A stretch of 64,000 nt of DNA from Flavobacteriales bacterium (GTDB lineage: Bacteria > Bacteroidota > Bacteroidia > Flavobacteriales_D > Crocinitomicaceae). The DNA lies in NCBI GenBank assembly GCA_947470515.1, contig CANITF010000003.1, positions 62,001 to 126,000 on the forward strand, in the 5' to 3' direction. The position numbers and the translations under genes were made by a program. Of this stretch, positions 50,212 to 54,612 are shown one piece after another; the stretch's first letter is position 1, and each line of letters opens with the position of its first letter. Under the pieces are notes generated by a model. The model ran no database searches. It saw nothing but the letters and a program-made list of their open reading frames with translations, and had not been told where the DNA came from.

Positions 50212-50652
50212 TCAACGTATCATGTCCTCTTCCAAAATCCGTATAAAATGAAATCCTTTCGGTCCAAAACCTTCATTGTAAAAGAATTTATGCGCTTTGA
50301 AATTAGCCGTATAAGAATCTAAAGCCATCATTGAACAACCTTCTTCTTTCGCTTTTTCATTGAGGTAGTTGAAGATTAATTTGCCTACACCTCGAGAACG
50401 AAATTTAGAGGAAACAACCATATTATCAATTTCCAAATATTTACCACACCATAATTTTGTACCTATCCAATAGCCTGCAATTCCCAGACAATCGTCTCCT
50501 TCAAAAACAGCTACTTGACCATATTTATTATTTGGAATCATCGCCGTTAAATCTGTATCGTAATCTTCTAATGTCAATGAAGGATAAAGCTCTTGCATGA
50601 CGGATAAATAATTCAACATTTCCGCTTTTCCATCTAATTCTCGAACAATCAT
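50212..50652 (-). CDS. GNAT-family N-acetyltransferase
   Basis: This 146-residue protein has a GNAT fold with the acetyl-CoA loop SKFRSRGVGKLIFNYL (about residues 82-97) and a C-terminal FYNEGF motif (about 127-132). The acceptor is unknown. Its start overlaps the stop codon of the S9 peptidase gene by 4 bp, so the two are coupled. Confidence 0.85.
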   Translation of the reverse strand: MIVRELDGKAEMLNYLSVMQELYPSLTLEDYDTDLTAMIPNNKYGQVAVFEGDDCLGIAGYWIGTKLWCGKYLEIDNMVVSSKFRSRGVGKLIFNYLNEKAKEEGCSMMALDSYTANFKAHKFFYNEGFGPKGFHFIRILEEDMIR

Positions 50653-52997
50653 TTTGCGTGTTTTATTATTAATTCTGTATAAAATAACTCATATATTCTG
50701 CGGTACTCATCATTCCAAGAATAACTTTCTTTGAATCCATGTGCTTCAACAGGAAATACCGCTAATTCCCAGTTTTCTTTTCCTAATTCAATAAAGCGTT
50801 GACTCAAACGAACAACATCTTGAAATTGAACATTGTCGTCAACCATTCCATGAAGCATCAACAATTTTCCTTGCAATTGGTTCGCATAATAAATTGGTGA
50901 ACTCTTTTTATATGCTTCAGGATCAGTTCCAGGATAATTTAAAATGTTGCTCGTGTATTCGTGGTTATAATGCGCCCAATCAGTCACCGATCTTAATGCT
51001 GCAGCACAAGGAAATTCAGTTGGTGTTGTGAGCATCGCCATAAGTGAAATAAAACCACCATAAGAGCCTCCATAAATTCCAATTCGTGAGGAATCAATAC
51101 CGAAATTGTTGACCAAGTAATCTTTTCCATCCAAATGATCTTGTAAATCACGTCCGCCCATGTGACGATAAATCGCCGTTCTGTAAGCACGACCATAACC
51201 TTCACTCGCTCGGTAATCGATATCTAATACTGTAAAACCATTGTCAACGAGTAAATTATGGAACATGTATTCTCTGTAATAATTGCTCCAATAATTATGA
51301 GCGTTTTGAAGATAACCAGCACCGTGTACAAAAATGACAGCAGCTTTGTTTTTATCTTTTACTTCAGGTTCATACAATCTCGTATAAACATCCACGCCAT
51401 CAGATGCTTTAAACGTTGTTACTTGTGGTTTTTTCCATGCATACGCATTAAATTCTTTGGTTGTTGAATTGGTGATTCTCGTCATTTTAGCATCCGGAAC
51501 ATTCGATGCGGTATACAATTCCCAAGGTTGATTTTTGTATGAATAACGAATGGCCAGTGTTTTTTCGTCAGGAGAAATGGAAACTTCATGTGCACCATCA
51601 GTAGTTAAGATTGGAACTGTTTTTTGAGGAATGATATCATAACGGAGGAAATCGCGGTTTCCAGGATGAGAACGATTGCATATAATGTAGAATTTACTTC
51701 CATCATTTGAAAGCTGAACATTATGAACTTCCCATTTACCAGAAGTCAATTGCTTTTTTTCTTTTAGTTTAATAGAGTAGGTATACAAATGAGAATATCC
51801 AGTTTCTTCCGATTGAAAATAAACCGTCTGACCATCATTCATCCAACCCAAAGTACCTTCTTCTGCATTCCAACCAGAGATTCCTGGTCCACCAATCCAA
51901 GCTTCGTCGTGCTGATGTTCAATTTCAAATACTTGATTCGTTGTTAAATCGATTAAAACAATCCAACGGTCTTTGTTGTCGTATGAACGAATGTCACATG
52001 CTGCAAAACTATTCGCACTAGAAAACTTCAAAGAATGCATGATAATTTTTCTGTCCTTTTCATAAGGTGTTGCATCATTGAAATAGCCTGGTTTTTTACG
52101 GATATCCGTCAACTTAGAAAAGTCAATTAGAATGACAGTATCATTTTCAATTGAATAAATTCCCAATCGGTGACTTGGATCTTCATCACTCACCTTTGCT
52201 CGAGCTGGACTTGTATATGTATGTCCGTCAGCTGCAATGTGATTTTCAACATGTGTTTCCTTTTCTTTTGGGTATTCAGAAATTCTAAATCCCACGAAAC
52301 GATTGTCGGGTGAAATTTGGATGTTGTCAATTGCATCTTCTCCAAAATAGTATGATTCAGGAAATTTATAAATGGTTGTTTCCTGTGCTTTGCGCCAATC
52401 CTTGCGTTCCTTTTTGTCTTGTAAGTATTCAAAAAGTTCGATTTCTTCTTTTGTCACGAATGTTTTATCCTTTTTCACAGGTTTTTCTTCCCCAGGTTGA
52501 AAATTGGTGAGTTGAATGATTGTTCCTGCTATTGCATTATAAGAATACACGTTATTTTCTTGCTGAAAGCAAATGATGTTTTCATTTTTTGTTCGTTGAA
52601 TATTATAAATAGGCGAGGATGATTGATAAATTAACGTTGAAATTTTTGTCTTCTTATCATAAGCAACCAATGCTCCTTCAATGCTATAATAATTTATAAG
52701 ATTGTTTCTTTGGGTATAGTCAAATTCAATGATTGATTTAGGATCTGCTTTGGCAGTAATATTTGTTTTGCCATTGAAAAGATGAGCATACGTTGAATTT
52801 CCAAGTTCATTTTGTGGATTCCATTCAAAGAAAATAGTTTTTCCGTCTGCACTCCATCTAATGTTCTCTGGAAGATTCCCAACGAACTCATTTCCTTTCA
52901 TGATTTCTTTAATAGAAAGGGAAGAATTGTTTGGAACAGTTTGACAATAAACACTCTGATAGGAGAGGATTAGAATTGGAAGAAGGAACTTGAACAT
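50649..52997 (-). CDS. S9-family serine peptidase (prolyl oligopeptidase-like)
   Basis: This 782-residue secreted protein has a signal peptide (to about residue 18), a beta-propeller region of WD-like PD40 repeats (about 40-500) and a C-terminal alpha/beta hydrolase domain. The catalytic serine is in GIYGGSYGGF (about residues 653-662), the aspartate in MVDDNVQF (about 731-738) and the histidine in EAHGF (about 763-767). It likely cleaves peptides after proline or a related residue in the periplasm. It is the first gene of a two-gene unit with the GNAT gene. Confidence 0.9.
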   Translation of the reverse strand: MFKFLLPILILSYQSVYCQTVPNNSSLSIKEIMKGNEFVGNLPENIRWSADGKTIFFEWNPQNELGNSTYAHLFNGKTNITAKADPKSIIEFDYTQRNNLINYYSIEGALVAYDKKTKISTLIYQSSSPIYNIQRTKNENIICFQQENNVYSYNAIAGTIIQLTNFQPGEEKPVKKDKTFVTKEEIELFEYLQDKKERKDWRKAQETTIYKFPESYYFGEDAIDNIQISPDNRFVGFRISEYPKEKETHVENHIAADGHTYTSPARAKVSDEDPSHRLGIYSIENDTVILIDFSKLTDIRKKPGYFNDATPYEKDRKIIMHSLKFSSANSFAACDIRSYDNKDRWIVLIDLTTNQVFEIEHQHDEAWIGGPGISGWNAEEGTLGWMNDGQTVYFQSEETGYSHLYTYSIKLKEKKQLTSGKWEVHNVQLSNDGSKFYIICNRSHPGNRDFLRYDIIPQKTVPILTTDGAHEVSISPDEKTLAIRYSYKNQPWELYTASNVPDAKMTRITNSTTKEFNAYAWKKPQVTTFKASDGVDVYTRLYEPEVKDKNKAAVIFVHGAGYLQNAHNYWSNYYREYMFHNLLVDNGFTVLDIDYRASEGYGRAYRTAIYRHMGGRDLQDHLDGKDYLVNNFGIDSSRIGIYGGSYGGFISLMAMLTTPTEFPCAAALRSVTDWAHYNHEYTSNILNYPGTDPEAYKKSSPIYYANQLQGKLLMLHGMVDDNVQFQDVVRLSQRFIELGKENWELAVFPVEAHGFKESYSWNDEYRRIYELFYTELIIKHAK

Positions 52998-53336
52998 GTA
53001 AAAATCGTTTTTGTAAAAATAAGTATTTTACGGTTGGAATTGACTCTAGAGAACTGTAAATATCTTTAAGAAGTGATGATGAAACAAAATCTAAACTGAA
53101 AATAATTACGATCGGATTAAAATTTCAAGCTGATTGTAAAAGATGAGTGAGTAGTATAAATAAAATAATAAAAAGATGATAAATGTTTAAAAAATAATCT
53201 TAATTTAGGTTAGAAATTAATCAAAAATAAATGAAGAGTAAAAAATGTCTTAACTGTGATTCTGTATGATTCATTTGATTAGTTTGATTTTGAGGGGATA
53301 GGGAGGAGGTTGGAATAGATTTTAAAATATTCAAAT
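52998..53336. other. Intergenic stretch upstream of the GxxExxY gene
   Basis: This AT-rich stretch holds no convincing gene. Its right part (53247-53291) is the left inverted repeat of the GxxExxY cassette. The left part may carry the promoter of the reverse-strand S9 peptidase, but no confident -7 element was found. Confidence 0.5.
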
Positions 53337-53811
53337 ATGATTGATAACAATTACAAACATTCAGAATTGACATCCAAAGTTATCGGCTGTGCAATGCGTG
53401 TTCATTCAACTTTAGGTAATGGCTTTCAAGAAGTGATTTATCAACGTGCTTTACAAATAGAAATGTCTATGGCCGATATTTCATTTTCTCGTGAGTTTGA
53501 GATGCCTATTCATTATAGGAACCAACACATCGGAACAAGAAGAGTTGATTTTTTAGTAGATGAAATATTATCAGTCGAAATTAAAGCAACTACAAAAGTA
53601 GAAGATGTTCATTTTGCACAAGCAATCAATTATTTGGAAGCTTATAATTTAGAAACAGGGCTATTAATTAATTTCGGAGAAAGAAGCTTAAATTTTAAGA
53701 GATTGAATAATAAGAAGTTTGTAGAAACGGAAAATGTTTAAACTGTAATTTTGAAATGCTCGTTTTAAAATCATAACTAATCATTTTAATCAAAAGAATC
53801 ACAGTTCAGAC
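53247..53811. mobile_element. GxxExxY gene cassette bounded by ~45-bp inverted repeats
   Basis: The left repeat (53247-53291) starts GTCTTAACTGTGATTCT. The right repeat (53767-53811), read on the reverse strand, starts GTCTGAACTGTGATTCT. They align over 45 bp with about six mismatches and two 1-nt gaps, and both end in TGATTTT. Each arm is built from GATT words spaced about 9-10 nt apart. The 565-bp unit contains only the GxxExxY gene. No target-site duplication is evident and there is no transposase, so calling it mobile is inference. Confidence 0.5.
53337..53741 (+). CDS. GxxExxY protein (PD-(D/E)XK-like)
   Basis: This 134-residue protein shows the name-giving GFQEVIY (about residues 25-31) near its N-terminus. 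Its middle has VDFLVDEILSVEIKA (about 71-85), which matches the D-x(n)-ExK core of PD-(D/E)XK nucleases. No function is established for the family. The gene is flanked by the inverted repeats described for the cassette. Confidence 0.85.
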   Translation: MIDNNYKHSELTSKVIGCAMRVHSTLGNGFQEVIYQRALQIEMSMADISFSREFEMPIHYRNQHIGTRRVDFLVDEILSVEIKATTKVEDVHFAQAINYLEAYNLETGLLINFGERSLNFKRLNNKKFVETENV

Positions 53812-53882
53812 AATGGGAGTGGGAGTTTTTAGAAAATCTAAAATAATTCTGAATCCCGAATTTCAAATTCCAAATTAAATAC

Positions 53883-53949: not shown

Positions 53950-54612
53950 ATGGCAACTAGAATTAGATTGCAAAGACATGGTAAGAAAAGCAAGGCTTTT
54001 TACCATATCGTAGCTGCAGACAGCAGATCAAAAAGAGATGGTAAATTCATTGAGAAATTAGGAATTTACAATCCAAACACAAACCCAGCAACAATCGACA
54101 TCAATTTTGATCGTACATTAAGTTGGGTACAAGTTGGTGCTGAAATGTCAGACACGGCGCGTGCTATTTTATCTTACAAAGGTGTTTTGTACAAAAACCA
54201 CTTAATTAAAGGTATCGCAAAAGGTGCTTTAACTGCAGAGCAAGTTGAAGAGAAATTTGCAGTATGGTTGGCTGAGAAAGACAATAAAATCACCGGTAAA
54301 AAAGATGGTTTAGCTAAAAATGAAGCTTCTGATAGAGCAGCTCGTTTGAAAGCAGAAGTTTTAGCAAATGAAGCTAGAGCGGTTGCAGTTGAAGCAAAAA
54401 ACAATCCTGTAGAAGTTGTTGAAGAAGCTCCAGTAGCAGAAGAAGCAGCAGAAGAGGTAGTTGAAGAAACTGCGGTTGCTGAGCCTGTCGAAGCAGAAGA
54501 AGTTGTTGAAGAGGCTCCAGTAGCTGAAGAAACTGCGGTTGCTGAGTCTGTCGAAGCAGAAGCTCCAGCTGAAGAAGCGGCTAGCGAAGAGGAAACTCCA
54601 GCAGCAGAATAA
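53950..54612 (+). CDS. rpsP: 30S ribosomal protein S16 with long acidic C-terminal tail
   Basis: Residues 1-80 are a normal S16 (MATRIRLQRHGKKSKAFYHI, then RSKRDGKFIEKLGIYNP). The total length is 220 residues, compared with about 80-90 for bacterial S16. The extra part has a lysine-rich linker and, from about residue 150, a Glu/Ala/Val tail made of repeated units such as EEAPVAEE and ETAVAEPVEAE. The DNA of two units contains the GCTGAG[CT]CTGTCGAAGC word. Extended S16 tails are common in Bacteroidota. Their function is unknown. It is cotranscribed with rimM. Confidence 0.95.
   Translation: MATRIRLQRHGKKSKAFYHIVAADSRSKRDGKFIEKLGIYNPNTNPATIDINFDRTLSWVQVGAEMSDTARAILSYKGVLYKNHLIKGIAKGALTAEQVEEKFAVWLAEKDNKITGKKDGLAKNEASDRAARLKAEVLANEARAVAVEAKNNPVEVVEEAPVAEEAAEEVVEETAVAEPVEAEEVVEEAPVAEETAVAESVEAEAPAEEAASEEETPAAE

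Follow-up and report, generated by a model that had tools for sequence, protein, structure and literature searches.

Cas4 nucleases carry their catalytic residues in the order E-D-ExK-Q-Y, and their hallmark is a set of four cysteines that bind an iron-sulfur cluster. Rpn/YhgA-like proteins (PF04754) are nucleases, reportedly of a family that has been linked to gene mobility and was formerly called transposase, and homing endonucleases of the PD-(D/E)XK type exist. RAYT enzymes belong to the HUH type. The family records of the GxxExxY proteins, TIGR04256 and PF13366, give no biological role. Our literature search found GxxExxY mentioned in passing only and nothing on the unit described here; subscription journals lay mostly outside this search, and an earlier description is possible. 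Searches with five of the repeat words returned apparently unrelated papers only. The main text of PMC5704561, in its accessible part, names neither PF13366 nor GxxExxY. Insertion sequences (IS) measure about 800–2000 bp according to the accessible part of PMC10969869, and RAYT is described as a tyrosine transposase in that of PMC3116915.

Here we analysed a GxxExxY gene and its surroundings in the window, the whole stretch of 64,000 nucleotides. We propose, with a probability of about two in three, that the gene and its flanking arrays form one copy of a very small mobile element, with a Cas4/RecB-like nuclease as its mover and with MITE-like derivatives.

The unit and its predicted nuclease

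The features of the locus, and the two other GxxExxY genes of the same genome, are as follows.

53246..53812, + strand: whole unit (array, gene, array), 567 bp, ends TGTCT(T/G)AAC; boundaries from comparison of relatives
53246..53291, + strand: left arm; end TGTCTTAAC, four GATT words starting at 53258, 53268, 53277 and 53286
53337..53741, + strand: gene of the GxxExxY protein, 134 aa, predicted PD-(D/E)XK nuclease; E32, D71, E81-x-K83, Q95 and Y99 conserved
53767..53812, − strand: right arm, inverted; end TGTCTGAAC, four GATT words starting at 53800, 53791, 53782 and 53772
53813..53823, no strand: 11 bp past the right end, common to arm-like stretches of locus L358; the shared segment may extend here
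G000:C2:105164 and G000:C9:87343: two other GxxExxY genes; flanking arrays CACATAG and, weaker, CGCTGAA/CGCAGAA

The three GxxExxY genes of this genome thus go with three word types. Each arm of the window's unit has TGTCT(T/G)AAC at its outer end, followed inward by four GATT words at a spacing of 9–10 nt. Aligned in opposite orientation, the two arms are identical at 40/47 positions with two 1-nt gaps, and the alignment score of 55 compares with a null mean of 21.8 and a maximum of 33 (dinucleotide shuffles of both flanks, 0/1500 as good). The arms also find each other by BLAST in their own genome (E 1.1e-5). As a control, a flanking inverted repeat at p<=0.05 was found for 3/53 window genes, and only two of the 53, the GxxExxY gene being one, beat all shuffles. 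The first-pass annotation had described opposed repeats around a lone GxxExxY gene, with a GATT every 9–10 nt; the shuffles, the family match given below and the eight mapped word starts bear this out. Its 82% identity over 45 bp holds for the gapped alignment, not for an ungapped comparison of the two 45-bp intervals, which agree at 29/45 positions.

On the left, the unit is followed by a 782-aa gene (50649-52997, −) weakly resembling a Dpp5-like dipeptidyl-peptidase (E 4.5e-17, under the model cut-off), and on the right by rpsP (53950-54612, +); no hsd genes stand beside the window's copy. No target repeat was found around this copy. The window's closest relatives, genomes G018 and G002, lack the unit, and their spacer holds other sequence that aligns poorly. 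In both, the spacer upstream of rpsP, where the window has the unit, carries a different inverted repeat, CCCCCTTT...GGAGGGGGACTAAGGGGGAGG (L164 and L165). An RNA family was rejected as an explanation of the locus, as the sole Rfam match scored under the gathering threshold and fell inside the gene.

The 134-aa protein matched TIGR04256 (GxxExxY) at E 1.9e-38 (131.4 bits against a cut-off of 35) and PF13366 at E 1.6e-36 (125.7 bits against a cut-off of 22); these are the only matches of the unit's one gene, and no known transposase was found in the unit. Residues E32, D71, E81, K83, Q95 and Y99 were invariant in 14 diverse and 76 closer sequences (five of 80 proteins were omitted from protein alignment A3 for stops or length). 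Together with the predicted model (pLDDT 88.9, pTM 0.82), the conserved residues place the catalytic D...(E)xK of the PD-(D/E)XK superfamily in its core fold. The closest fold was SSO0001 (PDB 4ic1; Foldseek E 1.3e-4), which we take to be a Cas4; it aligned with the model at Z 9.7 over 104 residues (rmsd 4.5), the next entry reaching Z 7.3. A sequence search against solved structures gave no match at E<=1, and PADLOC reported Cas4b weakly, at E 0.005. The protein has a single cysteine and is therefore not a Cas4 with a four-cysteine cluster. From its predicted structure, the sole gene of the unit likely encodes a minimal Cas4/RecB-like PD-(D/E)XK nuclease.

Relatives, boundaries and possible target sites

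A class-wide search over 295 genomes found GxxExxY relatives in 178, with the close clade (about 50% identity or more) scattered over many families. A flanking inverted repeat at p<=0.05 was present in 42/57 close-clade rows and 40/60 other GxxExxY rows, and missing from the remaining 15/57 and 20/60; 2/119 rows were too short (L306, L294), and the window's own locus was counted twice (L031, L063). A named set was assembled from the best 80 of 556 loci (62–90% identity), of which 79 were scored, L426 being too short. It is mostly from Bacteroidota and includes Anabaena sp. UHCC 0187, along with bins, possibly misbinned, assigned to Pseudanabaena, Synechococcales, Raymondbacteria, Chlorobiaceae, Melioribacteraceae, Desulfurellaceae and Dojkabacteria. 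The inverted repeat, which the first-pass annotation had suggested seeking at the flanks of GxxExxY genes in related genomes, recurs at p<=0.05 in 62/79 named relatives, the Raymondbacteria locus being among those without it. An end motif of the TGTCTGAAC type was found on both sides in 63/79 and on at least one side in 74/79.

The first GATT begins 3–4 nt past the end motif in 116/120 arms of relatives. Within these 120 arms, the distance from one GATT to the next was 9 nt in 193 cases, 8 nt in 52 and 10 nt in 25, compared with about 4 each in shuffles. The proposed spacing of one helical turn is therefore only approximate: it is near, with a peak at 9 bp and not 10.5. Carriage by phages or plasmids was rejected as an explanation: matches were found in 8/72,556 plasmid records, in none of 50,697 phage records and in none of the contigs of a viral-contig scan. 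In genome G220, the gene copies L081 and L294, which lie on separate contigs, share 98% identity over 349 bases, and one of them is cut off at a contig end and has rearranged arms.

The conserved letters of the arms are the end motif and the words, and the words differ between clades: GATT, GGGATT, GAATT, CGCAGATT, CACAGAT, CACATAG and others. Word similarity correlated with protein similarity at rho 0.443 in 3042 pairs from different host families, drawn from 81 loci whose repeat was significant; the maximum in 500 permutations was 0.183, and control DNA 60 bp further out gave rho -0.063. This tracking could simply reflect arrays that travel with the gene, through common descent of a linked unit, but what is conserved in the arms is the end motif and the words.

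Boundaries were compared over 198 loci, 72 of which have the end motif on both sides; 61 of these 72 are simple units, yielding 170 ordered pairs of simple units with >=78% DNA identity over the gene. L066 and L365 are one locus, and both were counted in these pairs and in the exact-end repeat test below. Units of the 72 loci with both ends measure 420–746 bp. Similarity begins <=5 bp from the outer end in 84/170 pairs and stops <=5 bp from it in 92/170; it overruns the left end by >15 bp in 16/170 and the right end in 6/170, and it begins inside the unit in 58/170 and stops inside in 56/170. Inverted ends thus bound the moved segment as they do in IS, with about half of the pairs ending <=5 bp from the motif. 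The closest relative of the window's unit, L358 (90% protein and 84% DNA identity), lies at another genomic site, beside a saccharopine dehydrogenase-like gene. Upstream of its gene, L358:1292-1878 holds nine stretches that match the window's two arms, all on the same strand; these are partly tandem at about 61 bp and include sequence past the right end (ATGGGTGTGGG).

Target duplications of 2–8 bp at the exact ends of 75 units (61 with the gene, 14 gene-less) were not above chance. Longer direct repeats in the flanks exceeded the 99th percentile of mismatched pairs in 8/70 units, where 0.7 were expected, and 62/70 fell below this threshold. In five of the eight (L303, L365, L068, L291 and L367), target-like repeats abut the unit. 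The direct repeats were:

L365: 42 bp, 41 identical
L068: 22/22 identical
L303: 74 bp, 69 identical, right copy 6 bp away
L291: 26 bp, 21 identical
L367: 20 bp, 17 identical
L377: 18 bp, 15 identical, at threshold only
L087: 23 bp, 18 identical, at threshold only

Three candidates were rejected as target repeats: that of L378 is an extra array copy, and those of L312 and L368 do not adjoin the unit on both sides. The target-like repeats span 18–74 bp, in a few units within restriction operons; presumably, judged from translations and in part from known HsdS/HsdM sequence, their sites lie at the hsdS 3' end or at the hsdM/hsdS junction. In L291, L087 and L377 both flanking genes remain readable, the upstream gene being completed by the left repeat copy and the downstream gene following the right one.

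Pre-insertion sequences were predicted by deleting the unit together with one repeat copy. The L291 prediction aligned with genome G257 without gaps over 400/400 columns, 346 of them identical; 0/6 junction-spanning comparators were gapped at the junction, and three were gapped elsewhere. For L377, 3/4 junction-spanning comparators were ungapped there, with one alignment free of gaps across 259 columns; L462 shows a 2-base gap at the junction. Left out of this evidence were the L303 comparators (29 and 12 bases past the junction), L447, which ends at the L291 junction, and L465, which falls short of the L377 junction; L365 and L068 had no full comparator across their junctions. Judged from these alignments, the uninterrupted L291- and L377-type junctions of other genomes are, in all likelihood, empty sites. 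Two points count against this: the repeat copies of L291 and L377 have already diverged, and hsd-type genes, in or next to which the clean repeats are found, undergo frequent recombination. An IS-like target duplication with an empty site is found in a minority of relatives, and the window's own copy shows neither. The search for empty sites that the first-pass annotation had suggested gave such sites for two relatives and no clean one at the window's own locus.

Gene-less arrays and competing explanations

The exact pattern TGTCTGAACNNTGATT was found in 37/295 genomes, and the reversed pattern gave two matches overall. Genomes with the pattern comprised 20/46 of those having the clade gene and 17/249 of those lacking it (Fisher 3e-9, odds ratio 10.5), the 46 being defined by >=50% identity, three of them by partial matches. 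Genome G182 holds one gene unit and at least 36 further gene-less sites, and genome G118 holds at least 14 gene-less sites and no GxxExxY gene. The loci examined contained 25 gene-less array pairs of 77–142 bp and 40 unpaired arrays, with many pairs of 77–103 bp in G182 and G118. None of the 25 pairs lies inside an ORF of >=100 aa, and in one of them, L157, a direct repeat of 61 bp with 53 identical positions flanks the pair. Long hairpins were predicted in 3/4 pairs folded with RNA parameters. In their array letters, the gene-less sites of both G182 and G118 agree with the arms of the gene unit in G182. G182 thus contains short non-coding copies whose ends are also those of a gene-bearing element in that genome, as is the case for MITEs. 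In genome G135, the 135–142 bp pairs L139, L140 and L141 appear by eye to have extra hairpins between their arrays. A second abundant palindromic repeat, GAAGTTTAGCGAAGCGAACTTCGCG, occurs in the right flank of L148 and at many G182 and G118 sites and is unrelated to the arrays.

Two observations had been named in advance as speaking against a minimal element, namely GxxExxY genes without flanking repeats and repeats without the gene, and both occur: the former in the 35 rows given above as 15/57 and 20/60, the latter in these arrays. We do not take the gene-less arrays as refuting the proposal, because non-autonomous copies would look the same. The notion of a minimal element itself is well supported by similarity that often ends at the arrays, by the same layout in many unrelated hosts, by the few target-like repeats, by the empty sites for two relatives and by the gene-less copies.

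The arrays could instead be moved by another host enzyme, the GxxExxY gene being cargo caught between two copies, a possibility that we regard as unlikely. Genomes G118 and G226 would fit it, since both have gene-less arrays and no GxxExxY gene, and to our knowledge a lone PD-(D/E)XK protein is no known type of transposase. However, the 80 array-bearing loci contain four neighbouring opposed pairs 170–2500 bp apart, and all four are GxxExxY units (L099 scored as such through identity with the L065 place), so that no other gene was seen between opposed arrays in this small sample. The odds ratio linking arrays to the clade gene, and the tracking of word and protein across host families, likewise argue against cargo.

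Of the comparisons between congeners, six allowed a judgement. G118 and G182 have one gene-less pair in common, three pairs are present in one genome and absent from the other, with about 16–21 other bases in their place, and a further one is truncated in one genome; the sixth comparison concerns the gene unit of G182. Two gene-less pairs and the gene unit of G182 replace 17–22 other bases of G118 and are not simple additions. At the site of the G182 gene unit, G118 has a 22-bp remnant-like sequence and genome G212 an unrelated one. Alignment was too poor to be used for the site in G036, for the L152 site in G212 and for a second G118 copy beside L129. Joined ends of 22 bp, TGTCTGAA-6-TTCAGACA, occur in G118 at C6:57893, C27:141179 and C37:123609. 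Their sequence may be read as that of deletion scars, formed via the 4-base repeat TTCA. A role as a common target site was rejected, as among 295 genomes only G118 has them.

These joined forms, with the similar decayed sequence at the site orthologous to that of the G182 unit, would suit a homing-type selfish nuclease that cuts a site resembling joined ends and has the unit copied in by repair, with no true transposition; a homing endonuclease (3r3p) also stands low in the fold list. Such homing is nonetheless improbable. The wider joined pattern is found in 16/295 genomes (4 with the reversed control), and the 22-bp form is the expected leftover of a deletion through TTCA. The L291 and L377 empty sites lack such a site, and homing would not be expected to leave direct repeats.

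Neighbouring ORFs are co-directional with the gene in 65/72 cases upstream and 67/79 downstream, and an ATG follows the unit by 0–1 nt in 24/60, compared with 3/60 on the other side. For the Pfam test, each neighbouring ORF was trimmed to the 290 aa nearest the unit. Upstream neighbours (72) included HsdS in 16 and the HsdR C-terminus in 8; downstream neighbours (79) included the HsdR N-terminus in 8, RhuM in 8, HsdS in 6 and the HsdM N-terminus in 4. Still less probable than homing is that the gene is an accessory of type I restriction operons or defence, its arrays being operators or recombination sites and not ends: the hsd and RhuM neighbours and their shared direction favour it, but on each side the majority of neighbours are varied or unmatched, with no restriction-gene Pfam match, the window's copy lies between the Dpp5-like gene and rpsP, the same junctions occur without the unit and gene-less pairs lie outside ORFs. 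The constant hsd association of a type I restriction component was not seen. The preference for such sites probably arises because insertions that leave genes intact are selected and because restriction operons are themselves mobile.

Proposed mechanism and comparison with known systems

Returning to a mobile element with its own nuclease, we infer that the nuclease acts on the arrays, given the indirect support of its intact catalytic set, the tracking of word and protein and the G182 arrays that share letters with the gene-unit arms. Several nuclease molecules would occupy the words of the two arms, which here number four per arm at steps of about 9 bp; they would bring the ends together and cut the element ends, the target or both. 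Host repair would then complete the insertion, leaving duplications of variable length, and the same protein could mobilise the gene-less pairs in trans. Each GxxExxY clade would read its own word. Surviving insertions would be those between ORFs; the arms provide the upstream gene with stop codons, and the next start codon often follows directly on the arm. More tentatively, at slightly less than even confidence, the units may represent a new class of autonomous element, among the smallest, in which a stand-alone Cas4-like nuclease reads clade-specific words spaced by 9 bp, protein and ends co-evolve, target duplications are long and variable and gene-less hairpins are multiplied in trans.

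A mobile unit with defined ends, empty sites and gene-less copies would explain why GxxExxY genes are scattered over bacterial phyla, and it makes a nuclease of no assigned role testable as a mobile element. Should the nuclease mobilise the unit, a single PD-(D/E)XK domain would be enough for movement, and the natural word variants would be a ready set for the study of DNA choice. Its specificity could then be re-programmed by swapping words, and its target duplications would differ from those left by DDE, HUH, tyrosine or serine enzymes.

Compared with the described systems, the Cas4/RecB nucleases provide the best fold match and the same order of catalytic residues, but the GxxExxY protein has 134 aa and one cysteine, and no CRISPR locus was seen beside its gene. 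Rpn, compared here by the brief description of PMC5350276, belongs to a different Pfam family, and no flanking word arrays are mentioned there. The unit resembles REPIN/RAYT, as the accessible part of PMC3116915 describes it, in its paired inverted repeats and predicted hairpins outside genes, tied to a single small DNA enzyme. It differs in that its protein is of the PD-(D/E)XK type and no HUH tyrosine enzyme, its repeat is a word array and a few copies have target repeats.

The likeness to IS and MITEs lies in one gene between inverted ends, short gene-less copies and direct repeats in a few copies. Unlike IS, the unit has a PD-(D/E)XK enzyme and no recognised transposase, its ends are arrays of words spaced by 9 bp, its direct repeats are long, variable and mostly missing, and its size lies below the IS range. 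By architecture, the unit belongs with the IS/MITE kind; should its enzyme be confirmed, it would count as a new class. On this comparison, we read the unit as a small mobile element accompanied by non-autonomous copies, which works like IS with MITEs or like REPIN/RAYT and has the enzyme of neither.
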